Shown: positions 8,794-64,000 of the stretch, piece by piece
Position numbering within the stretch: position 1 is the first letter of the stretch
Layout: each line of letters starts with the position of its first letter
NCBI GenBank assembly: GCA_958496175.1
Contig: OY292275.1
Coordinates: 51,165,701 to 51,229,700, forward strand
DNA length: 64,000 bases
Direction of reading: 5' to 3'
From: Sisyra terminalis
Taxonomy: Eukaryota > Arthropoda > Insecta > Neuroptera > Sisyridae
Notes under the pieces: model-generated
The model's database searches: none
Told to the model about the DNA's origin: nothing
Seen by the model: the letters and a program-made list of their open reading frames with translations, nothing else
Program-made: the position numbers and the translations under genes

Positions 8794-9193
8794 GTAAGTC
8801 CCACATTAACTAAATCAAAATCGTAATGTTTATATACCCTATGAACAGAAGTGTTTCTGATAAAGAATATAATTTTTCACGGTTGAATTTAGAAAAAAAG
8901 ATATGCAATTTTCACCCTTTAAGAATAAAAACAAAACGGATTCATTCGAGAAAAAAAAGCACTGAATTAATTTAGAGTACATTCTTCGTTTAGATTTGAT
9001 TTAAATAAACGGAAGATCATATTTTATTCCATCGGGGTTTCTTCTCTACTGGTTTGATACTTGCTTGATTATTATTTTTAAGAGCCAAAACCTTTATGGG
9101 TTCCCGTGTTACCTAAGTAGTAACTAAAGTAATTTAAACACAATTAAACGAAAAAAAAGATAGTTTCATTTTATTGAAATATTATGAACTGTT

Positions 9194-9386
9194 ATTTATT
9201 TTTAGTAGGATAGTGGACTTAAAGGTTGTAAATCCATATACTAATTATTAATTTAGCGACGTTTCGGTCCTTTATTTGACCTTCATCAGGCAAATAACGG
9301 ACTGAAACGTCACTAAATTAATTAAGTCCACTATCCTACTAAAAATAAATAATATTTTGTAAATTATGGACACAACCAATTTATCG
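9194..9386 (-). mobile_element. Hairpin element with a hammerhead core (9.2 kb)
   Basis: Arms TTATTTTTAGTAGGATAGTGG (left) and its complement (to 9352) enclose a second inverted pair TTAATTTAGCGACGTTTCGG / CTGAAACGTCACTAAATTAA. A unique tail of about 34 bp follows the right arm. The element is bounded by ATTATGAACTGTT (9181-9193) and ATTATGAATTGTT (9387-9399), a 12/13 direct repeat read as a target duplication. No coding capacity. Same architecture as 61119-61379. Confidence 0.75.
9250..9298 (-). ncRNA. Hammerhead ribozyme core, intact consensus
   Basis: On the - strand: CTGATGA (9283-9289), stem II GGTC...GACC with an AATAAAG-type loop, GAAA (9262-9265), then CGTC, with cleavage expected after GTC (9258-9260). 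Flanks ATTTGC and GCTAAAT can form stem I with one bulge. All invariant core bases of a type I hammerhead are present. Stem III is minimal, so activity may need a dimer. Confidence 0.7.
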
Positions 9387-10640: not shown

Positions 10641-10699
10641 ACTTATCCAATTCTTCTGACTTCCAATATTATCAACAATTCAAATGAGAAATAAGTCTT

Positions 10700-10960
10700 A
10701 ATGTAGTAGACCAAATTTATCAATGTTATCTTTTATATATTTTAATTTGTAATGTTCCGTCGGTGTGATTCCGACTTCATCTGGCAACCCATATTCATTG
10801 AGAACGCATAGTCTCGTGATATAAATAATTTATATCACGAGACTATACGTTTTCATTGAATATTTTAAGTTTGCCTGATGAAGTCGGAATTATACCGACG
10901 AAATGTCGCAATTTGAAATAAGTATAACAAAGCACTGATAAATTGTAGTCTATTATATCC
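10700..10960. mobile_element. Hairpin element with hammerhead cores (10.8 kb)
   Basis: Arms AATGTAGTAGACC-AATTTATCA (from 10701) and TGATAAATTGTAGTCTATTA (to about 10960) are inverted copies. At the centre is a perfect 17-bp stem TAGTCTCGTGATATAAA with a 3-base loop (10809-10845). The right arm holds an intact hammerhead core; the left arm holds a decayed one (CAGATGA instead of CTGATGA, GGAA instead of GAAA, on the - strand at about 10748-10790). Confidence 0.75.
10870..10912 (+). ncRNA. Hammerhead ribozyme core, intact consensus
   Basis: CTGATGA (10875-10881), perfect 5-bp stem II GTCGG/CCGAC with a 7-base loop AATTATA, GAAA (10900-10903), then TGTC with cleavage expected after C10907. TTGC before and GCAA after can pair as stem I. 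Best stem II of the set. Confidence 0.75.
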
Positions 10961-13430
10961 AGGCTCATTTTTTATTGCAACATCTTTGTTATTTTTCTCT
11001 AATTTTTAATATTTTGATAATTATCAAAATTGAAAATATTTTTCAATATTTACTTCGTTTTTTTGATGCTCTGTGTTTATGCAAATCGAAATATTGTATA
11101 TTAAATCCAAATAATTAATATTCCCAATATAATTCAATTCATTACTAAATACACAGCATTTCCAAATAGTTACGCTTATAATTACCCAATATTATGTTTA
11201 CTAATTTCATTACCATTTTATTTCCAACCAAACCATTCAAAGTCGAACCAAAAAAAAAGCGCAGTAATATTGAATTGCTGCACTATCGTTATTTCAATAA
11301 ACGGGGAGAAATTTTCAAATTACAATTCATTTCGTGAAGAGATCACGTAAAATATTAGAGAGAACTCGAATATCGTTCGTTTTTGCTGCATCGAAGGTAT
11401 TGAATGAGGTGGAGAAATGCATAATTTATTTGAGAGATGTTTGCAACTTTTTTGCTATTTAATTTTCATCGCAATTGTTGGCGATCGTAATTGTAATACG
11501 AAATAGGTCGAATAGTTAAGCTGAAGATTTAAGGGAAGAACGTGTCATTAGCGATGAGCTTTACGGGTGCTTCGAGGGTGATTGCGGGGTGGAAAATGGG
11601 GGTTGGAGGATCTAGTTTACAACACCAAACAATCTTGTGCTTCGTTGAGCATATATAATTTTCTTTTAGAAACGTACGAGCATTGAAAACATCCTTTATA
11701 TACACCTGCCTGGGCTAACCTCGTTGTTTTCCAATTTTCTTCTTTTGCAATTTCGGCGTGAAAAGTCAACGAGATTGCAACGATAGTACGTCTTTGGCTT
11801 GTGTCCCGGAGACGTTTTTGTGGAGAAAACGTACTATTAAATTAATAAATAGTAAAGAAAAAACGTTGACACAGTGAATCTCATTTGAGATATGCTAGAT
11901 GGAGCTTTTTTTCTATTTTTCTTTCCTTTTTTTTTTGGAAAATCTTCTACGTTCTCCGACACGTACAGAACGATCTTTAATAGAAAATCGCAGTGAACAT
12001 TTTGACATAAATACTAACCGCAAAACGCATTCCTCAGATGCCACTTGGAGAAAAGAATCTCTGAATTTGGTTTTCGATATGAACTTTTTCACAGATTTTG
12101 TAATTATTTCCGACCAAGTGTCACTGAGGTATTCGCACATTTGAAAATAAACCGCTGCCGCTATTCCAACTCGGTAGAATCACTCGACCAAATCTGAATT
12201 TTCCACTTAAATATTTCATTCAAATTCGCCTCGCAAAAAAAAAACCCCCGTTGAAATCGTTGCAGCGGAAACATGCAGTGATTCGGGCCTGTTGAATTTG
12301 AATGAGCTTTATGAAATCGGGCGGTGCGAAACAATGCCGTTATTGATGCCACATTTGAGCTTTTAAGACGCTAAGTTTGGAGACGAAGACTTCTTTCTTT
12401 CGAAAGCTTTTTAACTTAGTTGAAAGCGTATTTTTCTGACGAGTGCAATTTCTATTATATTTTTTAATGTGAGTGAAGGGAACTTGGTTGAATAAAGCTA
12501 GACAAGTGAGAGCTTTGCAGCTTTGTTTTCTGAATGGCATGTCACAGAGGAAAATCTTGCCTTTTTGCAACAATGAAATTGCATTTAACTTTGAGTCTCC
12601 TTAAAATTATGCATTAAAATCGACGAAAAATAAACCAACAAACTATAATAAATTACACACCAAAAATTAAGAAAAAAATTCAACTGAAATTCGATCAATA
12701 TCATTACCATATATAATAAAAAAAAAAGTTTCAAACTTTTTTCCTCATTAAATTATTCATTCCATTCCAATTCGCTTTAAGAATTTCATAAGAGAAAAAA
12801 CATTTCTTTTCTCAATAATTCCCAAAGTCTACCTTATTTTTTATTAATAAAGAAAAGGAGCAAAAAAACCATTGGGAAATATGTGCATCATTTACTGTCC
12901 CATCTTTGTTGATCTCACTGCAGATGTAACGGGCAATTCCATTATTCCCCTTGGGAAATTTCTGATATTCACCTACGACATTAACACCATTAAGCAAAGC
13001 GTGATATCAAATGTATTCTGAGTTTCGAAAATGAAACATTCAATTGAATCTGCGTCGAATCGAAACCTTAAAAAGTTCCATTATTCTAAAAGTCTTTTTC
13101 CATTTGGAACCTTTTCCTACAAATTCAGAAAATTTGACAGGATTCTTGGTTATGGAATTTTTTGTGTAAGTTTTTTTAACTAAAACGGTATATTAACCTT
13201 TCCGTGACTTCTCTAGTTAAAAGCTCAAATTCATTCTTAAATGATTATTTAGTTTGGTTCAAATATTATCACAACTAAATTGATTGCAATTAAAAGAAAA
13301 CAAGGGTATGCCTTTGAATTTAGGGGTTTTAAAATCAATTAAAAATCGTAAATATAGAAAATGGCACTTAAACAGTGGAATGAGGGAACAAAGAAGGTAT
13401 GAGATATCATGCTATAAGAGAAAGCATAAC
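10961..13430. other. Intronic DNA without recognised genes or elements
   Basis: AT-rich, mostly unique. The parts near 11340-11840 and 12000-12330 are less AT-rich and free of visible repeats. Reading frames here (11899-12144 +, 11913-12140 -, 12161-12573 -) overlap one another on opposite strands and show no known motif, so none is called. Confidence 0.4.
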
Positions 13431-14590
13431 TTTATTTTTTTTTTCAAATAAATTGCACAATCTGCATAGGGTTGCAATAAGTGCGTTCAATCTATCGACA
13501 ATCACATGTAAGCACTAGTCCCAGTAGATTAGTGCTGTATAAGTACAAAGATTTTTAACAATCAATAGTGTCAATAACAATAATAGTAATTCTTATAGCA
13601 ATAACAACAATCATAAAAACAATTAACAGTAGCAATAACAATAATAATAATAGTCTATAATAACAATATCAATGCTAAAAATAATGTGAAACATTAATAT
13701 AGAAGTAATTTATTAAAATAAGGCTATATAATAAGAAATAATAATTTGGCAATAAATAGTTAATAGGAATATTTGTTTAGTTAGAAAATCTATCAGGCAA
13801 ATCAATTACATTCCATTTTTGTAACCTTCTTATCATCTCACTGTTGTCCAATAAGTTTATTGCGAGATAGTTGGAATGATCGTCTTGTTTTGTCAGGTAT
13901 TTTTTACTAAACCTTTGAATTTCCTCCTTTACAGATGGCATTTCTGTATCTTCATGTATTTTTTTATTGTTTACCATGGAGCACCGATTATTTATCGTAG
14001 GGTCCTTGATTGAAATCTTTGCAGGATTTCAATGTTGGAGTTGGATGCAGTACCCCACAATTGTATCCCATATGTCCATATGGGCTTGAGGATGACCTTG
14101 TACAGAAGAAGTTTGTTTTCTGTTGATAATGGTGCATTAGATGCCATTAGCCAGTACATTTTTTTGTATTTTTTATTTAAATATTCTCGAGTTTTTTTGA
14201 TTGGCACAGCCCATGTAAGTTTTTGATCTAAGTGCATTCCGAGATATTTTACCGTGCTCTTTTGCGGTAGTTCTGTGCCTTCCATTGTAACCGGTGGACA
14301 TATATTTCTGCGCAGTGTAAACATTATGTGTGTAGAATTTGCGTTGTTTATTTTTATTTTCCACTTTTTTGTCCATTTTTCTACTTTGTCCAGATTATTT
14401 TGGAGCTTTAACGAAGCTTCATTGGGTTCATCTGCTGCGGTTACGATGGCTATGTCATCAGCAAATGTTGCCACTAATGCATCTATTGTATTTGGCATAT
14501 CGGCTGTGTAAAGGGAATACAACAGAGGTCCCAGTACGCTACCTTGGCAAACCCTGGCTGTTATTTTTTTGGGAGTCATTACTTCCGATT
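13430..14590 (-). pseudogene. 5'-truncated Jockey-like non-LTR retrotransposon
   Basis: From 14579 downward the - strand encodes the second half of a Jockey-clade reverse transcriptase: QGSVLGPLLYSLYTADMPN, then ATFADDIAIV with the catalytic FADD, then KYLGMHLDQKLTW and LLYKVILKPIWTYGIQLWGT. The same frame continues through a TAA (13990) and a second TAA (13973) into KKIHEDTEMPSVKEEI and IDLPDRFSN, the conserved Jockey C-terminus, ending near 13777. An A/C/T-rich 3' UTR follows, and a run of T at 13432-13444 is the poly(A) tail read from the other strand. Truncated upstream of QGS, as is typical of target-primed insertion. Non-functional. Confidence 0.9.
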
Positions 14591-14618
14591 CGTATTTGAA
14601 ACTTTATTTTTAAAATCC

Positions 14619-14656: not shown

Positions 14657-15035
14657 AATCAGGCTTCTTTCCAAATAACTTTATTTAACAAATAACAATA
14701 ATTCGTTATATTAAGAATGATCGTAGATTTTTTATGTATCTTTTATAAAAATGAGACTCTTATTAGAAAAATGCACAATTTTGTTAAACCTATAATTGTA
14801 TTACAGTTTTGATCATTCATATCCCACAATTTACTCTCGGGAAATAAAAGACACACTTTTTATAAATTTTGAATTCCGTAAAACGTAATTATGCGATAAC
14901 GGTTAAAAAATACTATTCGTATTTCGTGTACTTTCCTCCTTAGACCGCGGTATTGCCATCCAGCTTGAACTCTCCCCATTATTTCTTCATATTCCTTATA
15001 CCTCTTAGATATAAACATATTTAATTTAAAATAAA

Positions 15036-15296
15036 AACTCAGGTTTTTTAAGACCCCTTAGATGTTTTATTTTACAAATTGGCGGCGTTTCGTTGCTTAT
15101 CGCAACTTTATCAAGTGTCTTGGATCACAAAAACGTTTGAGTTTCAGTCCAAACTCTTCTACTAAATCTAATTTAATCTAAAATTAGATTAGTTTTTGTG
15201 ATCCAAGACTCCTAATGAAGTTGCGATAAGTAACGAAACGCCACCAATTTGGAAAATAAAACATCTAATGCGTCTTAAGAAACCTGAGATTTCTTT
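15036..15296. mobile_element. Hairpin element with decayed hammerhead cores (15.1 kb)
   Basis: Arms CTCAGGTTTTTTAAGAC (15038) and GTCTTAAGAAACCTGAG (to 15289) continue inward through matching ATGTTTTATTTT and AACATCT blocks to TTTTTGTGATCC. Each arm has a hammerhead-like block with a good stem II (GTTGC/GCAAC) and GAAA, but the core is altered: TTGATAA on the - strand (near 15105-15115), CTAATGA on the + strand (15212-15218), and CGCC replaces CGTC in both. Flanking TTTAATTTAAAATAAA (15020-15035) and TTTAATTTCATATAAA (15297-15312), 14/16, could be the target duplication, though such AT-rich matches arise easily. Confidence 0.65.
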
Positions 15297-15649
15297 TTTA
15301 ATTTCATATAAAGCTGAATTCTGAGTTTTATCTTCTAAAATAGACATATTATACCAGCATACATAATATAGAGCAGAACCAACTAATTCGATTATTTGTG
15401 ACCTCTACTGGTAATTTTATTTATTAAATGGTGGGAAGTTTTTATAATTTTGAATTTTTAGGTTTGTAGATTTATTTTGTTATTAATCTCTTCATGTTTT
15501 TGTTTAAGTACATGATCTAAGCTTTAAATTAAAACCTAAATTACTTTGGTTAGATTATATTTAACTTATAAATGACCTTTCATAAGTATACTTTTTTACT
15601 ATTGTATAGTGAAATAGTTTTCTATACTATTTTAATAGTATACGTTCTA

Positions 15650-18055: not shown

Positions 18056-19761
18056 CTATTATTATTATGGAGTTTAAAAGCATTTAAAAGACAGATATTC
18101 TTTGGAAATTATTCATTGCAATAATTAAAATACTTTAAGCAAAATCGATTGATACATTATATAACATTGTATGTTTCTATATTTGAATTAAAAATTAGTT
18201 TCAATACATAGATATAAATGGGTAAATAAAATGTTCAATTACTATTGTATTAATTTAACTTTTTGGACTTTGCTATTTAGGATTGTTAATACATATCTGT
18301 ACATGATACTTAAAGGTAACACTCTACTTCTATATGGTAAATGTTTTCGAACATATGACCCGTGTTATATTGATAATCGGTTAATTCATATAAAATGCAA
18401 TATACATTTTGTATAAGTAACCAAATGTTAACATACTACCATATATATATATAGAATATATAAACAGTCAACTGTGTATACATTCAGTATTTATATATAA
18501 ATAGCCAAATTAATCTTTTATTTGAAACCCAGTAACTTTCCATGAAATATTGACAACCCAGCACTAACACAACTGAGAAATGGCTGAAATTAGCTATTCA
18601 ATGAAATCGAAATGGCAGTTGAAACTAATGACATGATAGTTCAAATTTGATATAATAATTATTACATTCTTATTCTACTCAGATGAATGTATTTACAACT
18701 TTATATTCTTTGTCCTTGTCTTTGCCGTAACACATACGTTTGCTTATTATGTATTTTGATATTGAAGGCAAGTTTTGTTTAAAGTTGTGTACCACAAACT
18801 ACTTATAACTGGTGTGCCAGTTTTGGCATTACCGAAAGAGGCTACGGTAGTGGATTGAAAACATCTTTTAAAGTATACCAAAGAAGTATAACTTCTCATG
18901 TGTGTACATAAGTACACACACCCTATTTTGTTAGAACATTTATAGTCTTATGCAAACCCTGGTAGTCGAAATACGACATATTTATTTAAATCATTACAGT
19001 ATCCTGACAATTTAGGCGATACCTTAATTGATGAATATATTCACAAATATTATCTATTTAAAGATTCAGTACAAAATAATGACGATATTCGCTTCGAACA
19101 AAATATATAGAAATATACATTGCATTCACGGTATCTTTGAAATATGTACCCTTAAATTGACATTACTTTGCGTATTTTTTTTTTGTCCAAACGACTAATT
19201 GTTTAAGAAAAAGAAATTTTTTCCACTATGGCAGGGATAAAAAGCTACTAGCGTGTAGCTATTGACCACAATAGACTTAATGCCCTGGCTTTATTATCTA
19301 TTGAAACTTAGTGCAAAAAATCGAATACGATGATATAATCAATATTTTTGCGTAAAGCAAAGCTCGGGAGAGATAGTTATTACCTAAAGTAAAGTTTGGA
19401 AAAGGCTTCAAATTGTATTAAGCTTTGAAAAAAAATATTGGAATTAATAAGCTTTATTTATATGAGTACCTATATGTATTACATGTTTTTTCATAAGAAG
19501 TTTTGTGGAAAGTTTTAAAAATTATAATAATTCATAACTTAAGTATTTGATTTGAAAATAAGAAGTTTTATCTTGATAACCTACTTGTTACGGAGCAAAA
19601 AGGGCAAAATATTGAATCGGGGCCTATGGCGGTTTCGGTTTTAAATCCACCACTGCATACTAATTGTTCTTAGTTGTAAAATATTATGATTAACTAAGAA
19701 GACAATTCAGGTTGTTTAAGATCGGTTTTTTTATTTAATATTTTTTAATATTCAAATTCGC

Positions 19762-19796
19762 TACGTTTCGTTACGTATCGTGACTTCATCAGGCTT
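19762..19796 (-). ncRNA. Hammerhead ribozyme core
   Basis: - strand: CTGATGA (19786-19792), stem II GTCACG-ATA-CGTAAC with one C-A mismatch, GAAA (19766-19769), CGTA. GTA is an allowed cleavage triplet (U followed by A, C or U). The + strand partner at 20236-20262 has TTGATGA, losing the essential first C. Confidence 0.55.
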
Positions 19797-20475
19797 CTTG
19801 AATCAAAAAAAATATAACATTTTCAATTTAAATTAAAAAAAAAATGTTATTATTTTATTATATCCTTGTAAGGATTAAAAGGATAAGGTTTAAAATATAA
19901 CTATTAATACTATTTAATTTTGGCACAACGTTTCGTTATGTTTTTAGCTTCGCCAGATACTAGAAGAAAAAGGACAAAACAATAACATTAGCTATGTCAA
20001 TGTTAATCTAATGTCCAAACTTGTTTTTGTTTACCTCAATTATTAAATACTTTTGTTAATCATAGTAGATGATAAACTTCAGCTCTCAGCTTTTATTAAA
20101 TAAGAAGACAATTCAGGTTGTTTAAGATCGGTTTTTTTATTTAATTTTTGTAATATTCAAACTAGCTAAATTAGCAAAATTAATATTTTATTGTATTTAA
20201 ATTGAAAATATTATATTTTTTGTGATTCAAGAAGCTTGATGAAGTCACGATACGTCACGAAACGTAGCTAATTTGAATATTAAATAAAAAAACCAATCTA
20301 CCAATCTTAAACAACCTGAAATGTCTTCTTATTTAATAAAAGCTGAGACCTAAAGTTTATCATCTACTATGACTAACTATAGTATTTAATAATTGAGGTT
20401 AACAAAAACAAGTTGGGACATTACATTAACATTGACATAGCTAATGTTATTGTTTTGTCCTTTTTCTTCTAGTAT

Positions 20476-20510
20476 CTGAAGAAGTTAGCGAACCTAGCGA
20501 AACGTTGTAC
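20476..20510 (+). ncRNA. Hammerhead-like ribozyme core
   Basis: CTGAAGA (20476-20482; the variable position is A, allowed), stem II GTTAG/CTAGC including a G-U pair, loop CGAAC, GAAA (20499-20502), CGTT with possible cleavage after 20506. The - strand partner (19926-19960) has CTGGCGA and is probably inactive. Confidence 0.5.
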
Positions 20511-20575
20511 AAAAATTAAATAGTATTAATAGTTATATTTTAAACCTTATCCTTTTAATAATTATAAGGGTATAA

Positions 20576-22504
20576 ATAATAATGTGAATTATCTAAACTT
20601 TACTTTCAAAGTAGGAATTAAATTGAACATTGAATATTGCTGATTTAATATTATTTTTGAAAAGCAGGCGATATTATAAGTACCAGCTATTTTGGTTGTT
20701 AAAAGTAGTTCGTTAAAATACGTTTATTAACCCGTATTTGTTGAAACTTTTATTTATCTCTTTGTGAAAATCAACCCTTATTATTCTGATCGCTAATGTT
20801 AAAAGCATTCTTTTATCTCCATTTTTTACGTTTTTCAAATTAAACAACAAAAACACATTTTCTATCCTATTACTCATTCGATTGCACGTTTCTCTGTCTC
20901 AATTCAAGATTTATTCAAATGCAAAAGATTTCCATTTATCTTTGCGCTCACGAAACCGATATCGTGTTGTTACGCATAAAAGCTTCGAATCAGATATTGC
21001 AAGAAAAATATGGAAAAAAAAATATTGACTTTCAATCATCTTCTTTCGCGCTGTATTGAATAATATCGACGATGGATGACTAGGTTTTATTGTATAAATG
21101 TATATATAGATATGGCGCTTGTCTTTAACGAAGGTTTTGCAGCTTTTCGGAGATCGTAACCCAGAACTTGGAAAATTGTGATTTGACAGCGCTATCTTCG
21201 TGAGGGCGCGAGATGGAAGCTCGAAGCTTTCGAGGAAAAGCGATCGAGTCGAGTGAGTCAGTTCTGCTTTGATAACTTGTAGATATGAATAAATTTTCCG
21301 CCGAATAACTTTTTGATATAGTTTGAAATCATGGGACTTCTGCATGGTTATCGAATTGAACTGGGAACTTTGAGTTTAATGGAGGAAAGTTTACATTTTG
21401 AAATTAGCTTTTTACTGTTTAAAAACTAAACCATTATTTTTTAATATGGTTTCACCTCTGTAATTATGGAAATCTATTATGAAAAATAAAAGTTTCATTG
21501 CCAATTCGAATGAAAAGCTAAAGTTTAAAATTCGCTCCCTGGAATGTACCGTAATATTTTACTGCATTTACTGGATTTCAAACACAGTTTTGCCAACTTT
21601 GTTGTAAAAAGATCACCTTTTGTACCTATTGGATCAAACTATAAAGAAGAATCCCTATGACAAACAAATTATCATTACCATACTAATTCCTTTTCCACAA
21701 AAAGCTTATTATTTTCCAAAGCCAAAACCGTACCCAAACTCCATATTCTAGTTCTATTCTTTCCTTGTTTAAGTCTAAAAGCACTTCATTTATTGCCTTT
21801 TTAATCTAAAATTGTTTCAAGACAATATTGTTTTTGTCAAAGCAATGCCCGATTAACGATTTTCTTCACTTCGTTTTGAAATTGTTGAAAAATTCATAAA
21901 TCTAACGGAGAAAAAAACGACTACAAATTGTTTGCTTGAACTTAACATCTTAAACATTGAAAGAAGGAAAATTTATAACGCTCAAAAAGAACGTTATCCT
22001 CGATAAAATCAGTGAAGCGAATTTTACAATCGCCACAAACGATTATTACGAACCGTATTTTCCTAGCAACTTTTCCTCAAAAAAAAAAGAGTGAAAAAAG
22101 TTGGAATTATTTAAAAATATAAATTCGATGAAAGAGTCAAACTACCGATATATTTTACGTATATTATTATATTTCCTTTTTTATCTGAGCTAATATAAAG
22201 AATAAGGGAATTTACTTAAAGTTAAGATTTAAATATTCTACTGCTCTTAGTCTATCGAAATCAACCTATCATTGAAAAGTTGCATATAAATTTAAAACAA
22301 TTTTTTAGTAAAAAACTTATAACTTTGTTAAAAAGTTTTCTTAATCACTGTTAAAAATTACGAATTACTAACAAATTAAGAATTACATATAAGATTACTT
22401 AAGCAATAAAATACTTTTTTCTTGTTTTTACTGAATAAAATTGTAAATAAATTTGTTTTATTCTATTATTCAATGAGGTTAAATACTTATAGTTATTATA
22501 ACAG
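20576..22504. other. Intronic DNA without recognised elements
   Basis: No repeat or exon seen. The 144-codon - strand frame at 20911-21345 lies in a less AT-rich, unique block but has no known motif and contains a TATATA-encoded Ile/Tyr run, so it is not called a gene. Confidence 0.4.
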
Positions 22505-22873: not shown

Positions 22874-22885
22874 TATATATGTATA

Positions 22886-23083
22886 TGTTACGGGTAAAGT
22901 TAGATTGATGAATAAACCTAGGTTTACCCAGGTAAATGGGTGGAACGCGCTTTACCAGGGTAAAGCGCGAAATATGTCCAATTTCAGTTATATTTCGCAC
23001 TTTACCCATGTTTCTTGAGTAATCCGTAGTTTACCCGAGTAAACCTAGGTTTACTCGTCAATCTAACTTTACCCGTAACATAT
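22886..23083. mobile_element. Palindromic miniature element (GTTACGGGTAAAG ends)
   Basis: Ends GTTACGGGTAAAGTTAGATTG and its exact complement CAATCTAACTTTACCCGTAAC. Inner AACCTAGGTTTAC palindromes occur in both arms, and the core contains the stem CGCGCTTTACC/GGTAAAGCGCG. The whole 198 bp can fold into one rod. Flanks are ATAT on both sides. Non-coding; superfamily not assigned. Confidence 0.75.
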
Positions 23084-50867: not shown

Positions 50868-52691
50868 TTATTTACGTTTTATTATAATTCTTCCTTGTCT
50901 GCGTCGTATTTCCTCCTTATCCAGCCGTCGTTGTTCCTGGAATCCGATAAAACTATCGCGCATTGCTCGCCAAATTTCATATTTCGGCCCAACACCCGGT
51001 TCTGGATTCAAAACACCGGCAAGATCTTTCTTATTCCAAAATTTTAAAATATTTTCCAACGCCTTGATTGGAATTGGCAATAAAATCATTGAGATTATCA
51101 AATATGTTACCACATCTCCCGCGGGTTCTGTATTTTTAACCTTGTAAATCCAACTAAAAATACAAATAATTGCATCGACTACGACTAAATACGTCCAAGA
51201 AAATCTACAAAAGATATTCGGACGATTATCAAGCATAAATTCCGCGTCAACCATAAACTGTGATCTGCCGTATATATGAACCGATAGAATTTCAAAAAGA
51301 CTCAAATGAACCAAAGCAAGTCCCGTAACGTCTCGCATAATATTCCTGACTACTTTAAACGTATTTTTATCGTTAATAATCATCGTCGTCAGCATGCAAA
51401 TAAAGCAAATCGCTGCCGTCCAAGTGGTTTTGTGCATCTTAAAATATTGCGCTGAATTAAAAATGATATTCCGAAAAGTTTCCAGAGGAGCAATCAAAGA
51501 GTTTATTCCTAGAATAACGATCGCAAAGAAAAACAAGAAACACCACAGTTGAGAATGTGCCCACTGATTGAAAATATGCGGGAAAAGTATGTAAAGAAAG
51601 CTTCCGTTAAACAGATCTTCTTGAATACTAGATTTATTTGGATCATGTTTATTCAAAATCGAAAAGTATGGAATCCCAATCAGCAAGTATAGTGAACTTG
51701 TGTATATCATTGAAATAATCAAAAATATCTTCGAGTCTTTATATAATCTACGGTCACGAAAGAAGGAGTTCGATCCATAGAAAATAAACTGTCCGGTCGA
51801 TGCTGACGTGCTTATCGTCGCAAATTGTACGCTTTTGATCCAAATCTCAAAGTTGAGAAACTTGTTCCAATTCAATTGGAAGATGTCTTGGTAGACAGTT
51901 GTATTAGTTTCCAGTCCCATAAACATGAAAAGAAGTAACGTCAACGTTAGAATACTCATTGGCATCGAAATTCGTAAGTAGTGAAAAGCTGATTTTTTTC
52001 CACGTAATAATATCAGGAAAGCCAACGTCCAAATAATCATAACATTAACGCCTAACATCCAATAATCCGAGAAACCCATAGATGCAGACAATTCGCTATA
52101 GTTTTTATCAAAATGACTAAACCAGTAATAAGCTGTTGGCAAGTGAGTCCCATTCTTACCCGTATCACTGCAATAGATCTGTATATGCGAGAAAGAAATA
52201 TTCGTTGTCGGACACTGGTCCCATGGAAGTTTCCTTTGAATGCAAGTGAAAAAGTAGTAAAGTCCATAAATTGAGGATAACGATAAAAAAATTGGGTAGT
52301 ACAAGCAAAAAATTGCCATTGAAGCGGACACTCCTTCAATTAACGGACAGAATTTGAACACTCCACCAGGTCCGGATGAGTAGTACTGTCCTAGAATCAT
52401 CTCCAAAACCATAATAGGGTAGTTTAGAAGCACCGTTAGCATTATATAGATGTAGTAAGCTTCAGGGCCGTATGACAGTATAAACATTGGAATTTGGAAA
52501 ACGTTGCTGCAACTCATGACAGAGGCCAAAATTGTGATTCGAAGAAATCGTTGGTTTTGTTTGACAGTTTCGAAGTCTTCTCGCATATCACCCATGGGAG
52601 TGACGCCACGAGACGGCACTGGGACGCCGGTTAACATTTCACGATTTTCAAACATATTGAGCATGGAAGTATTCGATTCGTGCTTCTTCAT
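50868..52691 (-). CDS. Divergent SLC6-family (neurotransmitter-transporter-like) membrane protein, single exon
   Basis: Complete 607-residue intronless reading frame, Met at 52691, TAA at 50868-50870. About twelve hydrophobic segments are visible between residues 48 and 550. SLC6 landmarks: LEMILGQYYSSG (96-107, helix 2), PWDQC (156-160) and C174 framing extracellular loop 2 with three N-glycosylation sites (N164, N180, N197), TSASTGQFIFYGSNSF (295-310, helix 6), and LGINSLIAPLET (394-405, helix 8). Typical transporters have G-N-V-W-R-F-P in helix 1 for Na+ and substrate binding; here residues 62-68 read SNVFQIP, so coupling or substrate use is probably altered. The C-terminus is a basic, charged tail rich in Arg/Lys/Glu. 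The gene lies antisense inside the pgant2 intron. Lack of introns suggests a retrocopy or simple loss of introns. The substrate cannot be named. Confidence 0.9.
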   Translation of the reverse strand: MKKHESNTSMLNMFENREMLTGVPVPSRGVTPMGDMREDFETVKQNQRFLRITILASVMSCSNVFQIPMFILSYGPEAYYIYIMLTVLLNYPIMVLEMILGQYYSSGPGGVFKFCPLIEGVSASMAIFCLYYPIFLSLSSIYGLYYFFTCIQRKLPWDQCPTTNISFSHIQIYCSDTGKNGTHLPTAYYWFSHFDKNYSELSASMGFSDYWMLGVNVMIIWTLAFLILLRGKKSAFHYLRISMPMSILTLTLLLFMFMGLETNTTVYQDIFQLNWNKFLNFEIWIKSVQFATISTSASTGQFIFYGSNSFFRDRRLYKDSKIFLIISMIYTSSLYLLIGIPYFSILNKHDPNKSSIQEDLFNGSFLYILFPHIFNQWAHSQLWCFLFFFAIVILGINSLIAPLETFRNIIFNSAQYFKMHKTTWTAAICFICMLTTMIINDKNTFKVVRNIMRDVTGLALVHLSLFEILSVHIYGRSQFMVDAEFMLDNRPNIFCRFSWTYLVVVDAIICIFSWIYKVKNTEPAGDVVTYLIISMILLPIPIKALENILKFWNKKDLAGVLNPEPGVGPKYEIWRAMRDSFIGFQEQRRLDKEEIRRRQGRIIIKRK

Positions 52692-52960
52692 TGTGACTAT
52701 TAATTTATTTTTTAAGTCATTTAAATAAATTGATTAAAAATTTCACAATCAAATCTACGAATATTTATGGCATCGGAAATTATTAAATGTCATATTAATG
52801 ACGTTTCCATGATAATGCAGAATCTTAAGAAAGAATGATTTCCAATCACGAAACGCTCTTACGAAAAGTATAATTTATGAACTTTATTGTCACTTTAAGA
52901 CTTTTAAGATTTGTAGCGATTGAACGTTTTTAAAACGTAAATAAGTTGAGAAAGTAATTA

Positions 52961-53174: not shown

Positions 53175-54029
53175 TATTTACTTCCACGATATTTGAACCA
53201 AGAACCTACATGCTGCCAAGTATACAGTTTAGTTAGAATTGATACGCAAATTTGATCAAAAAATGTCTGTATATAAAACAAAGTCTTATTAATTAGACTA
53301 TCTATAACTGAAGAATGGCTGCACTGATTTTCATGATCTATGATTTGTTGGATTCGTCTATTCTTAAGTTATCATAATAACTCTTTTTATTATTATGAAT
53401 AAAATTCGTTTTTAAATTGGGTGTAACGGTTTTTTCAATTGTTTACTCACGTCACACACGTTGTAAATACATTATTAGTAATCATTGATGCCTGTGGTTT
53501 GCGAAAAACGCAAAGCAACCGTTTGAATTTAACTTTTTTAATTATTGGTTTTTAGTATCAAATTTATCATTTAATTGATATTTTGCTAGAGTGTTATTAA
53601 TAAATCTTATTGTGAGAATATTACTATGAACAATGCCACAATCTAAAAAATCTAATGTTTCCAAAACGTCAATGAAATTAAACCAATTTTCATAATATTT
53701 TTCGTGCTGACATTTATTGAATAATGACCAAATTGGTGATAGGATTTTAGGAATCTTTTTTTTATATTTAGCAAATGCGTAAAAAGTGTTAAAAGGGTAG
53801 AAATTATTTATAAAATTAGAAACAGTATTAAGCACCTACAAAAAAAATCAAAATCTCAAATCAAAGAGGGCTACGAGAGGGTCGATGAATTAATTAAAAA
53901 GAAACTTGTTTAAACCTTCATTATTTTTTATCGAAAAATTATGTATTTTTTATTGAAAATGTTTATATATCTTGGAAGTGTTATTATTGTTTATACCAAC
54001 CGTACCGTGTCTATAAAAATGAATTATAA

Positions 54030-54213
54030 CAACGATAATTATTAACAAAGTTAAAACGATTTTTTACGAACGCCTGAGGAAGACTCAATAAAGGAGCCGA
54101 AACGTCGCATGTAATAAATAAAGTTTTAACCGATTATTTTTGATCCTAGTCCTCTGAGCATTTTATCAATCTATTATATTGTATCATCGAGGATCTGAAA
54201 TTTTACAATAATG
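54030..54213 (+). mobile_element. Single-arm hammerhead element inside the Helitron-like copy
   Basis: From ACGAACGCCTGAGG through GTAATAAATAAAGTTTTAAC and GATCCTAGTCCTCTGAGCAT to GATCTGAAATTTTACAAT it matches the right arm and tail of 61119-61379. The left inverted arm is absent, so this is a single rather than a paired insertion. The 5' boundary is uncertain. Confidence 0.7.
54066..54110 (+). ncRNA. Hammerhead ribozyme core
   Basis: CTGAGGA (54074-54080; G at the variable position), stem II GACTC/GAGCC with one A-C mismatch and loop AATAAAG, GAAA (54099-54102), CGTC with cleavage expected after 54106. Confidence 0.65.
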
Positions 54214-54831
54214 TCTACGAATGTTTAAATATCTAAATGTCTTTTATGAATCTTGGTATGCACATGGATTTTAATATGTTGAACTGTTCTTATAAGTATA
54301 ACTCTAAATATGCAAAGTAAAATATTTATTTAAAAACGCACTTAATTTAAGTATGTGTATTAAATCCATACTAATAATTGAAAATGTAGCAATATTACCG
54401 ATATTGATAAATTTTTGCAATTCAATTTTAGGTGAACGAAGTTCACCGGGTTTTACTAGTTAATTAATATTTCATGCTTTTTGAAATTAAATATTTTCGA
54501 TCTACACATTACTACTGCATTATTATCTTTATTATTTTCATATTTGTATTTATTATGAATGGTAGCTTTCATTTTTGCAAAAGTCAATTAGTTTTCTTCT
54601 GTTTCCTTTAATCATCGCCATTTTCCTAGACAAAAAAGATGTTTAATAAACATGTTTGACGGTCATAATTTTTAATTAACTTTTTTTCGTTTCCTCTGAG
54701 CTATGAAAAATTTACAGCGTCACTACTAACCCTTTTTTTTCATTGAAGATTAAAAATAATACTTATGTATCTCATATACAAAAGCTCTCCGGCTTTGTGC
54801 AGCTTTATGAAACGTTCTGTATTATTTCCAG

Positions 54832-54930
54832 GTGTCGTCAACGTCAATGGAAGTCAAACTTACCCGCCACAAGTGTGATCATAACATTCCATAATGAAGC
54901 TCGTTCAACATTATTAAGAACCGTAGTGAG
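54832..54930 (+). CDS. pgant2: GALNT2/pgant2-like exon, start of the GT-A catalytic domain
   Basis: A 99-bp exon between an ATTATTTCCAG acceptor and a GTAAGT donor. It opens with the G that completes the split Met codon, then reads [20 protein letters not shown] and [12 protein letters not shown], and ends with AG of a split Ser codon. [23 protein letters not shown] is the first beta strand and helix of the GT-A fold; the FHNEA segment helps bind UDP in this family. It is separated from the stem exon by a 46,038-bp intron holding a - strand SLC6-like gene. Phases at both ends match the neighbouring exons, which is strong evidence that the three pieces belong to one transcript. Confidence 0.95.
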
Positions 54931-57640: not shown

Positions 57641-59699
57641 TTTTGAATCAAAACTACTATCGGAAGAAATTGTTGCGTTTGATTATCATTTTCATCTAAC
57701 AACTCTTACAATTCAATGTTTTCAAATTTTTTCGATAGTCTTTTACGTTCTTCTTTTTCTAAGTCGATATCGTTAATTTCAATGTTTTAAAACCTCTTGA
57801 AATACTAAGATTTCCTAAGAGTATGCTCGTCGTAAACTTTAATAAGGAGTCGATGCAATTTCGCATCCGTTTTTGTTTAAATAGCAATAGAAAATGCTGT
57901 CCGGGAATTATACTTTTTATGCAAAAAATCTGATATGTTAAATGGTATTAAAAATGATGAAGTCGCAGGAAATTTACCCTTTTACGAAATGAAAATCTTT
58001 GCCAAATATCAAAATAAAATGCTTTAATGCCTAATTTGGCAGACCCATTAATCGCCACCATCATTTATTGGTAGATTCCGGTTTCATATTTGCATACCTA
58101 GTATTTATAGTTTTAGTGTTAACAGGCTTTTTTCTTACTCAAAAGAAAGGTTTAAACAGTCTGAAATTGATAAAATAATATTGAAACGTCCTAATACCCA
58201 TTTTCATGAATCATGAAATTCAATCATTCGAGTTATCAAAGTTGCATCTTGTTAATCCGATTGTATGCATTTGATTGCAATGGAGAAGAGCACCTCATTG
58301 TGAAAGCTCAAACTGGAGTATTAATTTAAGCACAGCTCTCCAAATGACAATCAATCCACCATTACAACTGCACCTCTTATGCGAATCAATTTAACTGGCA
58401 AGCATATAATGACCAAATCGGTTCCAGAATGAAATATTGAAATGAGTCGTAAAAGCTCCAACAATTGCCACTGTAAAATTCAAACGAGTTTTTTTGGCGT
58501 TACAGTGTAATTGCTATTAGTTGGAATGGATGAAATAATAATGTCCATTTGGAAAATAGACTGCTAGTTAATTACCATTTAAGTGATGTAATTGTCATAC
58601 AGCTCATCGCTTATATTACACACGTTTAGCTGCTTACGTGGCATTCGAGCGTCACGTAATCTTGCCGATGAAGCGGCACCTCCACCAACATCGACACCTC
58701 CACTGATGTCCTACTGAAAATTAACGTTGTGGGCTTTTCGATACGATCGACACTAATCAATAGGGACATAGAGATGTAGTAGGTGCTTGTGTTTTTGGTT
58801 TTAACCGATTCGAAACGATTTTAATTGGACAGCTTTTTTCCGAAACTAACAAGGTTTTCTAATAGTCCTCTAAAAATGACACAACTCACTTATTCGTAAT
58901 TCATTAGTGTGTTTTAATTAATGAAATTTTTACATCTGATAATTAAAACAGTTTTCATTAAAGGAAAACATCGTATGGCACAAATCCATTTATGTGGGTA
59001 TCTACACACAAAACTCAATTGAAAATTGTTGAAAATGTCGCTTCTTAAGTTGTAAAGTATAATATTCTATCATATCTCTTTCTCCATTATTGAAGTACTT
59101 TCTTTTATTTATCACTTTCGATCGTTAATAATTGTTCTCACTTAAGTTTCAGACGAATAATTCGATCATAACTTCCAACCTCTCGGGGTTGAGAAGTGAT
59201 CAATCGATTACGTAGATTTTTGTTTTTGATTTGTACATATGACGTCATACATACGTCGCCACCCAACAACGTCACCCAATGACGTCATTGCCAAAAATTT
59301 CGAAAAATGAGCGAATTTTCGATTTTCCTGAAATAGGATTTTGGGAATGGCTTACTTACGTCACGGAAGGCCTAAAAAACATATCCTATAGTCAATATTT
59401 TTCATTTTTTTTTTTCAAAAATTTTTCCGGTCGGAATTTTGAAAAATCCCAAAAATAGGCCAAATTTCGTGTTTTTTTTTTTTACTTTTTTCAACTTTAA
59501 CGCTGTTTCTAGCGAAAACTATGGATCGTAGGTTAACGATACTACTCATTCGATAGCGCTTGAATTACTCTATCGATGGTGTAAATTTGGTTCCGGAAAA
59601 CCTTAAGGCAAAAAACTTTTTTTTTATTATGTTCTTCTTTTTGTTTCAATTTTTCCAATTTCAACCAAATTTAGTTTTGAGAAAGAAGTTTAATCGGAG
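57641..59699. other. Intronic DNA; paired CRE-like palindromes at 59240 and 59280
   Basis: 58590-58740 is a GC-richer unique block (GGCACCTCCACCAACATC). Two perfect TGACGTCA octamers lie 40 bp apart at 59240-59247 and 59280-59287, in a stretch with more TACGTC/AACGTCAC half-sites. 59300-59660 is T-rich and looks like decayed element sequence. Confidence 0.35.
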
Positions 59700-60712
59700 A
59701 AGATTACGGCGGAATCGGTAAATACAGCTTCTGAGAGAATATAGATCAACGATCAGCTTATCAAAAACCTCAGATACGCTGACGACAGAGTCCTCATCGC
59801 ATCTACTGCGGAGGACCTACCAGTGGTTGTGGATAATAATAAGTATTTAATTCAGAAGATTATGATAGAAGCGATAAATGCAGCTACTGAGAGAATATAA
59901 ATCAATGGTCAGCTTACCAACATCCTCAGATTCCCTGACGACACAGTCCTCATTGCATCTATTGCGGATAACCTTCAAGTGCTTTTGGATAATGTTAACC
60001 GCGCAAGCTATAAGTAAGGTATAAAAATAAATAAAAAGATGACCAAGTTCATGGTAATATCCAAACGAGACCGAACCCCCTCATGTCTAAACCGAGAAAA
60101 TAATAGAAAGAATAAAGCACTTCAAATACCTCGGATGTCTTATCAACGAGAAGTGAGGTATGAAGTAGGAAATACACAGCCCCATTGAGCAAGCCAGAAA
60201 AATCTTTACAAGGATGAGAAAAATCTTTGTAAATCGAACTTTATTTCTGGAACTGCGGCTAAAAATGATCAAGTGCTATGTGTTCTCTTTTCTCTTCTTC
60301 GGAATGGAAGGATGGACGCTTACCCAGAGGCTGGAAGATAAATTAAGCACATTTGAAATGTGGGTATATCGCCGAATCCTGAAGGTAGCTTGAAGAGATC
60401 ACATGTGAAATGAAAAATTACCAAGGAAACTTAATACTACAAGAACTTTTATGATATCTATAAAGAAGAGAAAGTTATTGTTATTCGATCATATCATGTG
60501 TACCAACAAATATCACTTACTCCAGCTTATCATTCAGGGTCAAAATGAAGGAAACAGAGCTCTGAGAAGAAGGACATCCTGGCCTAACCAACCTTCGTAG
60601 GTGGTTCGGAAAAAGCACTGGAGAATTCTTCCACGCTACTGTATCAAAAATCAAAATTGCCATGATGATCGCCAATCTTCAACGTTGAAGGGGTACCAAA
60701 AAAGGAAGAAGT
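59700..60712 (+). pseudogene. RTE-like endonuclease/reverse transcriptase remnant with duplicated core
   Basis: Contains NLRYADDRVLIAS (59779 onward; YADD is the RT active site), a second diverged copy near 59935 (FPDDTVLIAS), then IKHFKYLGCLINE, LEDKLSTFEMWVYRRILKV, TFMISIKKRKLL, HLLQLIIQGQNEGN and a final AMMIANLQR-type ending before a GGAAGAAG tail. This order is that of the C-terminal half of insect RTE-like retrotransposons. Several stops and frameshifts. The two core blocks (59721-59838, 59877-59994) repeat with a 156-bp period. Confidence 0.8.
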
Positions 60713-61118
60713 TTTGAGAATCTATTATTTGCATTTGTATCTATTCTTCATTACCAAAATTTACGTATAATATAGAGTAGAATAATCCCTCCGACTGCGT
60801 AGTAGTTCTTTTCCCCAAAAACAGCGCCCAACATAAAATCGCGCAATGTAAACACTATTTTATATGAAAATGGGATGGTTAGGTTCCAATTTTAAGAAAA
60901 TATATTTAAAATTGATAGTAAAACAAAAATTAACATTGTACATATTATAATCTTAAAAAAATAAATAACATCCTTTAAAAAACGTAAATTTAAAAAACAA
61001 TATCATAAGTATGAATTTGTTTAGAATATTCTGCAGTAGAAGGAGATCAATTGTCGCTATATTTTGATGAGATATTTTTCCTTGAAAAACAACTAATTAT
61101 CTTAGAGTGTTTACTAAT
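60713..61118. other. Intronic DNA, nothing recognised
   Basis: AT-rich, ending in the left 13-bp target duplication of the hammerhead element. Confidence 0.4.
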
Positions 61119-61171
61119 ATATTGATAAAATATTCAGAGGACTAGGATCAAATATAATCGGATAAAACTTT

Positions 61172-61230
61172 ATTTATTACATGCGACGTTTCGGCTCCTT
61201 TATTGAGCTTTCCTCAGGCGTTCGTAAAAC
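61172..61230 (-). ncRNA. Hammerhead ribozyme core, left arm
   Basis: - strand: CTGAGGA (61211-61217), stem II AGCTC/GAGCC (four pairs), loop AATAAAG, GAAA (61189-61192), CGTC (cleavage expected after the C that is G61185 on the + strand). Inverted partner of the right-arm core. Confidence 0.65.
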
Positions 61231-61235
61231 ATCGT

Positions 61236-61295
61236 TTTATATACGAACGCCTGAGGAAGGCTCAATAAAGGAGCCGAAACGTCGCATGTAATAAA
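61236..61295 (+). ncRNA. Hammerhead ribozyme core, right arm
   Basis: CTGAGGA (61251-61257), perfect 5-bp stem II GGCTC/GAGCC with loop AATAAAG, GAAA (61276-61279), CGTC with cleavage expected after 61283. Stem I from ACGC and GCATGT is short and imperfect; stem III is minimal. Confidence 0.7.
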
Positions 61296-61392
61296 TAAAG
61301 TTTTAACCGATTATATTTGATCCTAGTCCTCTGAATATTTTATCAATCTATTATCATCGAGGATCTGAAATTTTACAATAGTGTTTACTAAT

Positions 61393-62464
61393 CTTTTTGT
61401 TTTTCTTGTGTAGCGCAAAATTTTAAACGTGCGGTGAAAAACCGCGCAATAAAAATCCGCGCAGACGGAAGTAAACAGAATTGTACATAGAATAAGCAAA
61501 TAAATATATCACTTACGAAACTTGAAGGTCATTTAACGTTTTTGGCGCGCTTTTTATTGTGAATAAAATTCCCTTTTTCTGCAAAAGTTTTCCCACCTTT
61601 TTTCTCATCGTTAATTTAGGCTGTACTTACAATAGAATCAACACAGTCTAGGTTTCTACTACATTAGAATTAGAATTTCACTCAAAAAATCGCTTTTACA
61701 GTTGCTGAAAAGCATTTTTCACTTTTATTCGCTTTTATATGCTTCATATACTAAAAGCAAAATTAGGATAATTTTACACGTGTATATTTTGTTCGATTCT
61801 GATATCCTCAATTCATTTTACACCCATTAAATCTTATACACATACTCGTTAGTTCACACAATCAACTGAAACCTAAATAAACCCTTATATAAGTTTCTAC
61901 TTTGAAAATATCATGTTCTTATGAAATCTTCAACCTTATGTAAATCTTTCATTATACAAATAAATTAAGTATACGTTCGATTTTTTTTTAAATTTCCAAT
62001 TATTTAATGTTTTCAAAAACCGTTACAATTCAAAATTGAACAATGGAAAATATCGGGTTCTGTTTCTCACTATGCATTTGTTTTGAACTAACCAATCAAA
62101 ATTTGCAATTTTAACGAAACGTCAGAATAAATTAAAATAATTGTTTAAGCAAAATACGTTACTTCTTTTTTTTAATTACAATCGAATTTTATAGAAACAA
62201 TCGTTTACATTTATAGTTATTTTAATCCGAAGAAAACCAATAAATCAGAGGACTTTAAACAATCAATATATTTCATAAAGTCTTCAAAGACACTATTGTT
62301 TACTCCAAAGTTACAGTAGAAGAATTGGAGAATATTATCTTCCTTAAGGACAATTGAAATTAAAAGGATAAGCAAAAAATGGTTGACCGTACGTTTATAT
62401 AGTTCTTTCATGTATAATTATTTAAACCATTACATAATTAACAAATAATCCTTTTTTCGTTAAG
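61393..62464. other. Intronic DNA upstream of the Tctex exon
   Basis: Should hold, or lie downstream of, the small first exon and promoter of the dynein light chain gene. GCGGTGAAAAACCGCGCAAT at 61432 is a short GC-rich inverted repeat. No convincing start exon seen. Confidence 0.35.
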
Positions 62465-62793
62465 ATCATCGGGAAGAAAGCATATTTATTGTTGACGATG
62501 TAAGCAGTGTGATAAAAGAAGCAATCGAATCCGTACTGTCATCCAACTCGTATAGCCAAATTAAAGTAAATCGATGGACATGTAAAATCGTCGAAGAATG
62601 TTTACAATCCCTCTCCAAGCAATCTAAACCCTTCAAGTACATTGTTTCGTGTACAATAATGCAGAAAGTCGGGGGCGGACTACACACGGCTAGTTCCTGT
62701 TATTGGGATAACGAAACCGACGGAAGTTGCACGGTTCGCTGGGAAAACAAAACCATGTACTGCATTGTATCTGTGTTTGGTCTCGCAATATAA
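62465..62793 (+). CDS. Dlc90F: Dynein light chain Tctex-type, terminal exon
   Basis: The exon encodes almost the whole of a Tctex1/DYNLT1 light chain, the small subunit that binds dynein intermediate chain and cargo. It opens with two bases finishing a split codon and reads [20 protein letters not shown] and onwards to [18 protein letters not shown], then [20 protein letters not shown], ending AI and TAA. The C-terminal stretch is nearly invariant in animals. 108 residues are visible against about 111 in the family. No ATG is present at the expected place: an in-frame TAA lies directly before, and TTTTTTCGTTAAG at 62452-62464 looks like a splice acceptor, so a tiny first exon with the start Met should lie upstream. 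That exon was not found convincingly. An unspliced 5'-truncated retrocopy is the alternative. The frame is intact and conserved, so it is probably functional. Confidence 0.88.
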
Positions 62794-62820: not shown

Positions 62821-63343
62821 TAATTTTAGTCTTCTTTTTCTGGCTCGCTTTCTTATTCTTCGATTTCAATTAACTTGTAATTCGATTAGTTCAAACAAAA
62901 GCTCGCCTTGGAAAGCTCATCGATTAAAGACGTATAAACTACTATTGTGTTGCCGAAGAATAGCACGTCGGGAAAGTTTAAAGATGAATCATTTTTTAAA
63001 CAAGGATACATCAAGAAATCTCTTCATTTTGTCGATGGAGATTGTGTCTTTGTTTCGCGTTGTAGTTGATGAGCTTTCCTATTGTTTCAGACATGTCTAA
63101 TTACGGAGAGCATCGAGAAAAATAAATAAAATGCACTTTTTCATTGTCTTCAGTTGAAGAAAACTATCTGTATCAGTCGCGACTCGCGAAGCTTTGTCAA
63201 GTAATTGATTTGCTTTGACACTTATTCTATTAGACTATTAGAGCTTTCAACAGTCAATGTTTCATTTACGACAATCGTATTTATCAATGTATAGTTTTTA
63301 ATTTATTCTTTCTGTCTTATGAGCTTCTTTTTTTTTGTTTCAG
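62821..63343. other. Intron between the Tctex exon and the next pgant2 exon
   Basis: Unique AT-rich DNA ending with the polypyrimidine tract and CAG acceptor at 63341-63343. No repeat recognised. Confidence 0.5.
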
Positions 63344-63411
63344 TGTGCTAAATAGAAGTCCGGAACATTTGATCAAGGAAATTATTCTCGTCGACGATTT
63401 CAGTGATCATC
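63344..63411 (+). CDS. pgant2: GALNT2/pgant2-like exon, second part of the GT-A domain
   Basis: A 68-bp exon after a long pyrimidine tract and CAG (63341-63343), ending at a GTAAGT donor (63412). Its first T completes the Ser codon left by the exon at 54832; it then encodes [20 protein letters not shown] and DH, ending with the first base of the next codon (Pro in GALNT2 relatives). [17 protein letters not shown] is the strand leading to the first conserved acidic pair of the GT-A fold. The true metal-binding DxH, lectin domain and stop codon lie beyond 64000, so the gene is truncated by the window edge, not broken. Confidence 0.94.
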
Positions 63412-63704: not shown

Positions 63705-64000
63705 GCGTAGCTACCTAGGGGCTAGGCGAGGCAGTGCCCCGGGGCCCTCAAGCTCAGGGGGCCCTCGAATCCTTACCAAAAATCACGATCAAACTGAACT
63801 TTTGGAAATTCAGTTGGAAGTTCACCAATTCTCTTAGGAAATAATGAGCAAATATGGAGTACTAGAATGCGATCTAACGGAAGTATTTACAGCAATGTTA
63901 TTATTCTTTCCAATTTCTGTCACTTCTGCAGCAGCTGAAAGGTCATTTAGCAAATTAAAAATAATAAAAAATTATTTAAGAAATAATATGGGCCAAACTC
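63705..64000 (+). mobile_element. Deleted hAT transposon running off the window
   Basis: Opens CAGTGGCGTAGCTACCTAGG and has GGGGCCCTC, typical of a hAT 5' end. About 150 bp further on, the frame VFTAMLLFFPISVTSAAAER followed by SFSKLKIIKNYLRNNM is the C-terminal dimerisation domain of hAT transposases. The end therefore sits directly beside the last part of the gene: the N-terminal and catalytic parts are deleted. It continues past 64000. Confidence 0.8.

Follow-up and report, generated by a model that had tools for sequence, protein, structure and literature searches.

The window analyzed here, a 64-kb stretch of Sisyra terminalis DNA taken as a whole, contains an insert, E1, that appears from its sequence to consist of two 5'-truncated copies of a 344-nt retroelement without an open reading frame (ORF), joined head to head. 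We consider it probable that E1 arose in a single insertion event of this ORF-less retroelement, which resembles Penelope-like elements (PLEs), by two-sided priming of separate cDNAs. With its many short insertions, whose ends, starts, joints, and duplications are readable, the family allows two-sided priming and self-priming to be tested directly as modes of PLE integration.

E1 measures 261 bp (positions 61119 to 61379) and is flanked by a perfect 13-bp target duplication, AGTGTTTACTAAT, which was read directly at 61106 to 61118 on the left and at 61380 to 61392 on the right. Because the left duplication copy ends in TAAT, four bases that match the element as well, the position of the left border is uncertain by 4 nt. 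When 4000 random 40/80-nt pairs were drawn from the window, 0.05% shared a word of at least 13 bp, the length of the E1 duplication. The inverted arms (61115 to 61226 and 61242 to 61353) are 112 nt each and 97% complementary, with a 15-nt spacer between them and the palindromic AAAAC-ATC-GTTTT at the center of the insert; a 26-nt tail (61354 to 61379) is present on the right side only. In coordinates of the 344-nt unit, the left arm and center (61119 to 61241, minus strand) form a tail-less, 5'-truncated inverted copy of approximately positions 190 to 313, matched over 61116 to 61239. The right arm (61242 to 61353, plus strand) is a sense copy whose match starts at 61246, corresponding to unit position ~207, and the tail (plus strand) corresponds to unit positions 314 to 344 in the shorter of two forms of that stretch, so that the right side spans 207 to 344. 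Direct reading confirmed the anatomy proposed in the first-pass annotation (261 bp, opposed cores, near-perfect arms, a one-sided tail, and a 13-bp duplication), and the further claim of a non-autonomous insertion with a target duplication was supported. The proposed 261-bp element did not hold as the unit: the unit is 344 nt long, E1 is composed of two of its copies, both truncated and facing each other head to head, and the joint differs among most loci.

Each strand of E1 carries one hammerhead-like core. In the plus-strand core (61251 to 61283), five of five stem II pairs are formed and cleavage is predicted at 61283/61284; in the minus-strand core (61185 to 61217), four of five are formed, the core-adjacent pair being A.C, and cleavage is predicted at 61185/61184. 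The exact pattern CTGANGA-N4-30-GAAACG occurs six times in the 64-kb window, compared with a mean of 0.07 over 100 shuffles, none of which reached six. In all nine hand-segmented cores, one additional base separates CTGANGA from stem II, and stem III consists of two pairs without a loop, which supports the earlier description of PLE-like hammerheads with a minimal stem III. Rfam returned no match at gathering score across the window and no hammerhead at an E value of ≤10 within E1, and the Rfam check that had been suggested for these motifs was therefore negative; matching the cores required a home-made hammerhead model. This model was built from an alignment (A1) of six cores from other families of the window, with the E1 family excluded. 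In the window, where its E values are rough, it matched the plus core of E1 at 5.4e-7, the minus core at 8.2e-5, and a second, single-arm member of the family, copy 2, at 1.4e-5, the next match being at 0.33. Three further matches (1.2e-8, 9.3e-6, and 0.0096) fall on the partner arms of elements used for training and are hence not independent. Among the six training cores, both partners change in four of five stem II pairs and in one of two stem I pairs, and 88.1% of cells in the alignment pair, compared with 69.0% after shuffling. This covariation supports selection on the RNA fold of the hammerhead-like cores, as seen in six partly related rows only.

Several other candidates from these searches were set aside. 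A core at 34899 was dropped, as it had no model match at an E value of ≤10, and the relaxed core scan was discounted as evidence by itself, given a Markov mean of 7.1. A hammerhead-like pattern had three matches in IMG/VR, all in GC-rich contigs with model scores of ≤13.9 bits, which we took as chance, and patterns specific to the E1 family had zero matches in viral contigs and zero in prokaryote contigs. Matches of E1 to microRNA families fell below curated cutoffs and were taken as hairpin artifacts.

Five palindromic elements and a single-arm copy together account for the 12 cores that reach an E value of ≤0.01 in the window. The single-arm copy is copy 2 (53920 to 54209, plus strand), a single arm with a tail that covers unit positions 59 to 344. 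Apart from E1, the palindromic elements belong to other families. Three of them are diverged: one at 9192 to 9352 (minus strand) with a single hammerhead-like core at 9252 to 9295 (minus), one at 10683 to 10976 (plus strand) with opposed cores at 10869 to 10913 (plus) and 10745 to 10789 (minus), and one at 15017 to 15309 (plus strand) with opposed cores at 15206 to 15248 (plus) and 15078 to 15120 (minus). The fourth is a composite palindrome at 19689 to 20583 (plus strand) with cores at 19756 to 19798 (minus), 19921 to 19962 (minus; weak, E value of 0.0096), 20230 to 20272 (plus), and 20470 to 20512 (plus). A strict ungapped palindrome scan of the window recovered E1 only, the remaining palindromes being diverged, and no flanking repeats beyond 8 bp were found at the other hammerhead palindromes of the window. 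Two of these have right tails that are alike (score of 47; the 99.9% level of the null is 48) and left flanks that are unlike, which suggests that one-sided tails are not special to E1. Two other repeats were noted in the window: a 201-bp palindrome at 22883 to 23083, MITE-like in appearance, in which the model detected no hammerhead-like core, and a 156-bp unit at 59698 to 59993 that is present in two tandem copies with 82% identity.

We searched the genome (376.6 Mb, 11 contigs) with E1 and with copy 2. The E1 query gave at least 86 matches, with 40 of 1,688 first-look candidates scored, and the copy 2 query gave at least 55, with 40 of 1,901 scored. Aligned copies define the 344-nt unit, which has a recurrent 5' end and carries a single hammerhead motif; three-frame translation of one copy revealed no ORF. 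A 158-nt unit with a natural 5' end near 54052, common to copy 2 and E1, was rejected, as longer copies show 344 nt. The 5' end is complete in 5 of 7 single copies and in 10 of 26 paired arms (P = 0.20), and we claim no difference between them. In one copy (L066), the unit starts with GCAATGCCGAGCGGTTGAG, which we take to resemble the A box of a tRNA promoter; ARAGORN found no tRNA gene in this copy. Copy 2 continues with AATGTC past its tail, as other copies also do. After the tail, four places (L024, L028, L053, and L062) continue with AATGTCATCATC, where a PLE ORF could begin, although L053 and L062 have longer flanking sequence in common besides AATGTCATCATC, and no ORF was reached downstream of the tail and AATGTCATCATC in the sequence examined.

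Thirty-eight loci were fetched for the first set; one (L049) was left out as complex, and the remaining 37 were classed together with E1. Cores at an E value of ≤0.01 occur on both strands in 24 of the 29 fetched loci that were modelled, and the minimal type I hammerhead feature of PLEs is thus present in the family. Among the 38 pairs, the tail is found on one arm in 31, on both arms in four, and on neither in three. It is 31 nt long in the reference copy and 26 nt in E1, in keeping with the one-sided tails of ~30 to 40 nt of PLEs. Target duplications at a score of ≥9 flank 25 of 35 pairs, compared with 1.5% when flanks of different loci were paired as a null; they range from 9 to 20 bp, with 12 and 13 bp commonest. 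This count includes one duplication that is a poly-A run (L028), and a single duplicated locus (L025 and L026) enters twice in the tail, duplication, and arm-end tallies. The duplication count omits L021, L033, and L042, where one outer flank repeats the other in inverted orientation, an arrangement that may represent a true palindromic duplication, a snap-back product, or an assembly artifact. Another locus, L043, has an E1-type pair (371 to 483) that apparently lies between two strong cores of a different hammerhead family, at 168 to 210 (minus) and 639 to 681 (plus). The genome search suggested earlier for E1 has in this way yielded further copies with the same ends and with duplications. 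Most pairs carry their own duplication, and we rejected the reading of the right 13-bp repeat of E1 as element sequence, to which its resemblance to copy 2 (10 of 13 positions) had pointed.

A second set of 20 loci, picked by similarity to copy 2, comprised 13 head-to-head pairs and seven single copies. Duplications were found at 12, 11, and 9 of the 20 loci at scores of ≥9, ≥10, and ≥11, with null levels of 11.4%, 7.5%, and 1.8%, respectively. The inverted arrangement of the pseudo-LTR (pLTR) type and the target duplication, both PLE features, are thus present in the family, the duplication being weaker in the second set. Two of the seven single copies have a clear duplication (L064, 11 bp; L067, 13 bp), and none was found at the other five. 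As to the tandem or partial-tandem copies of PLEs, a neighboring piece in direct orientation was seen at just one of these 20 loci (L061).

The central joints vary between most of the 51 pairs in the two sets, and most palindromes therefore look to have been made afresh at each insertion; a few may not have been. That every joint is unique was rejected, given recurrences at L025/L026, the duplicated locus, at L017/L020, and at L018/L022. L017 and L020 lie 27 kb apart and have the joint and right flank in common, while the left end of the pair differs. L018 and L022 have a short joint in common (score of 0.93) between unrelated flanks. Four looser resemblances (scores of 0.78 to 0.79) all concern short joints. 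These observations bear on the reading of E1 as a MITE-like palindromic DNA transposon, which would be mobile as a whole, 261 bp long and bounded by terminal inverted repeats. Such an element would produce near-perfect inverted arms, a perfect duplication, and many copies, and would account for the few joints, L018/L022 among them, that resemble each other at unrelated places. However, a MITE would have inverted repeats at both ends abutting a duplication of fixed length, and this is not the structure of the family: the tail is at one end only in 31 of 38 pairs, duplication length varies, most joints differ, and 7 of 20 copies are single armed, including the two with duplications of their own. 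We find this reading hardly credible.

We then compared where the arms end within the unit, using BLAST ends against the 344-nt reference for the 51 pairs, 42 of which are one-tailed. In 25 of the 42, the end of the tail-less arm falls at unit position 312 or 313, with a range of 301 to 319 over all 42, and the tailed arm ends at 343 or 344 in 41 of 42, the reference itself stopping at 344. Two such narrow positions fit two preferred starts of reverse transcription, as were seen in vitro for a PLE (PMC11167929). At the opposite, 5' ends, 26 of the 42 one-tailed pairs are non-nested, meaning that the tail-less arm holds 5' sequence absent from the tailed arm, with offsets of 10 to 119 nt. Because each arm of these 26 pairs holds a part that its partner lacks, neither can have templated the other. 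In 24 of the 26, the offset is 10 to 29 nt and mostly falls in a low-complexity stretch, where the placement of BLAST ends matters and single cases may mislead. The offset of ~119 nt at L068 is plain on reading out the sequence, and that at L063 is ~45 nt by eye and 75 nt by BLAST.

Private sequence of this kind, clearest at L068, is impossible for a copied arm and bears directly on self-priming (snap-back), in which one cDNA would fold back at its 3' end and copy itself into a palindrome. The narrow stop of the tail-less arm, at 312 to 313 in 25 of 42 pairs, is likewise not the random one that snap-back would leave. Self-priming is nevertheless compatible with the 16 of 42 one-tailed pairs that are nested, and the palindromic motif at the E1 center, the inverted outer flanks at L021, L033, and L042, and the likeness of arms at the same locus speak for it. 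Average arm identity is 92.5% within a locus, compared with 88.2% between loci, and both arms carry the same four-site haplotype at 20 of 34 loci, from which it follows that the templates of a pair were alike; at 22 of 34 loci, the left arm is closer to the right arm of another locus. Taking both sides together, we regard self-priming as rather unlikely. Two-sided priming is itself weakened by the five of seven single copies without a duplication and by the recurrence of some joints.

We favor two-sided priming, while noting that the unit, the clustering of its two end positions, the duplications, the mostly varying joints, and the non-nested arms are read from the aligned copies themselves. 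For the remainder of the scheme, we infer how the steps follow one another, that the overhangs are 3', that priming takes place twice, and that a PLE enzyme is involved. Judging by the duplications, a staggered cut would leave 3' overhangs of ~13 nt. One of these would prime reverse transcription near unit position 313, and the one across the cut would prime near position 344, on a second RNA or again on the same one, which would give the one-sided tail. The two cDNAs would grow toward one another, each halting at a 5' position independent of the other's, and then be joined end to end, with the hammerhead traveling as part of the template; the outcome would be a palindrome in which the hammerheads oppose each other, flanked by a target duplication. 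Microhomology at the ends is modest, with means of 1.7 compared with 0.9 on the left and 2.2 compared with 0.8 on the right at 23 loci with duplications (a set that excludes L021, L033, L042, L026, and L028). On balance, and with less assurance than for E1 itself, we lean toward the more general view that PLE-type integration in vivo is two-sided, with a separate cDNA primed by each 3' end of a staggered cut, start positions on the RNA ~30 nt apart, and cDNAs joined wherever their 5' ends independently fall. With 13 of 20 examined copies head to head, the 344-nt family would then be a dense natural record of this process and the opposed hammerheads its by-product.

The minimal type I hammerheads of PLEs were reportedly described by Cervera and de la Pena in 2014 and by Lunse et al. 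in 2017. As described in reviews, they resemble the E1 cores in having the core, almost no stem III, and a dispersed occurrence in repeats; the reviews stress tandem motifs, whereas the E1 motifs are opposed. A close structural parallel is provided by Penelope copies of Adineta vaga, which have an inverted pLTR beside a direct one, a palindrome at the junction, a 31-bp tail on one of them, and a short target site duplication (PMC3846280). In the same paper, self-priming is the preferred reading of these palindromes, the pLTR pairs enclose an RT-EN ORF, which the E1 family lacks, and the word hammerhead is absent (PMC3846280). In vitro work on the Poseidon element PAc of Anolis found that both target strands are cut and extended, that two start sites delimit the tail, and that the hammerhead is unnecessary for insertion, with later PLE integration steps still to be validated (PMC11167929). 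PAc has two adjacent reverse transcription start sites that bound the tail, as is proposed for the E1 family, and in both the hammerhead lies ~70 to 100 nt before these sites. PAc differs in having an ORF, a tandem organization, a hammerhead that overlaps the ORF start, and initiation inside the ORF, whereas the E1-family unit is ORF-less; its start sites are also not homologous to the target, whereas slight microhomology, small in effect, is seen in the E1 family (PMC11167929).

PLEs carry an ORF with a telomerase-like reverse transcriptase, with or without a GIY-YIG endonuclease, which the translated copy of the unit lacks. We found no PLE enzyme gene, a genome search for GIY-YIG domains having given one match among 107 candidates. 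By eye, this match looks like the host nuclease SLX1, and the hammerhead model found nothing in the 3.2 kb around it. On these comparisons, the E1 family is PLE-like in anatomy, and its membership is proposed by resemblance. Among the open-access records searched, we recognized no opposed hammerheads in palindromes and no ORF-less PLE pairs, and such reports may be in print.

Metazoan retrozymes are a further comparison, and under such a reading the family would consist of non-autonomous elements spreading as small, self-cleaved circular RNAs. Like the E1 family, retrozymes are small, non-coding, hammerhead-bearing elements with many copies, and two reports state that they co-occur with PLEs and may share, or are suspected to use, their machinery (PMC7229834, PMC7761336). 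In the same sources, retrozymes are direct tandems whose type I motifs and helices are canonical, and the first also describes circular RNA, whereas the pairs of the E1 family are inverted and stem III is minimal (PMC7229834, PMC7761336). The E1-family arms also run through the predicted cleavage site and end elsewhere. We consider a retrozyme origin very improbable.

Opposed hammerheads in palindromes need not imply ribozyme activity on both strands, and if two-sided priming is true, they would be a by-product of integration. The first-pass annotation had proposed that the RNA of either strand of E1 could self-cleave, within the host intron. In its favor, the plus core is intact in sequence and in stem II, and two reviews describe minimal motifs as able to cleave as dimers (PMC7761336, PMC6466107). 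However, each E1 transcript has one core and its own antisense, so that a tandem dimer of the kind described (PMC6466107) is unavailable in cis, and the minus core is broken at its first stem II pair. Predicted folding favored the hairpin by ~70 kcal/mol on both strands: −179.5 compared with −109.6 kcal/mol for the plus-strand RNA with the plus hammerhead enforced, and −176.9 compared with −108.4 kcal/mol for the minus-strand RNA. In addition, the PAc hammerhead did not cleave in the absence of protein (PMC11167929). On these grounds, a stable hairpin rather than a self-cleaving RNA is expected. The folding models make a long hairpin the more likely form of E1 RNA and self-cleavage unlikely, and we judge cleavage of transcripts from either strand to be quite improbable.

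E1 lies in an intron of a GalNAc-transferase gene, because the exons on either side, at 54830 to 54928 (plus strand; GalNAc-T2 structures, E value of 2e-10) and at 63324 to 63407 (plus strand; GalNAc-T2 structures, E value of 6.5e-5), match adjoining segments of the same GalNAc-transferase 2 chain (residues 125 to 157 and 152 to 179). The placement in a pgant2 intron that had been proposed for E1 was supported by these matches. A dynein light chain exon reported nearby was borne out as a Tctex-1 dynein light chain frame at 62464 to 62793 (Pfam, 7.3e-33): the frame is uninterrupted and lies within the same intron as E1, and it is a better candidate for a nested gene or retrocopy than for an exon of the host gene. 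Upstream of the first GalNAc-transferase exon, an uninterrupted 621-codon frame of the sodium:neurotransmitter symporter family (4.9e-44) extends over 50868 to 52733 on the minus strand. Other matches in the window include a reverse transcriptase fragment at 13992 to 14603 (minus strand; RVT_1, 2.7e-14) and, just under the cutoff, a hAT transposase fragment at 63838 to 63999 (plus strand; 2.6e-4).
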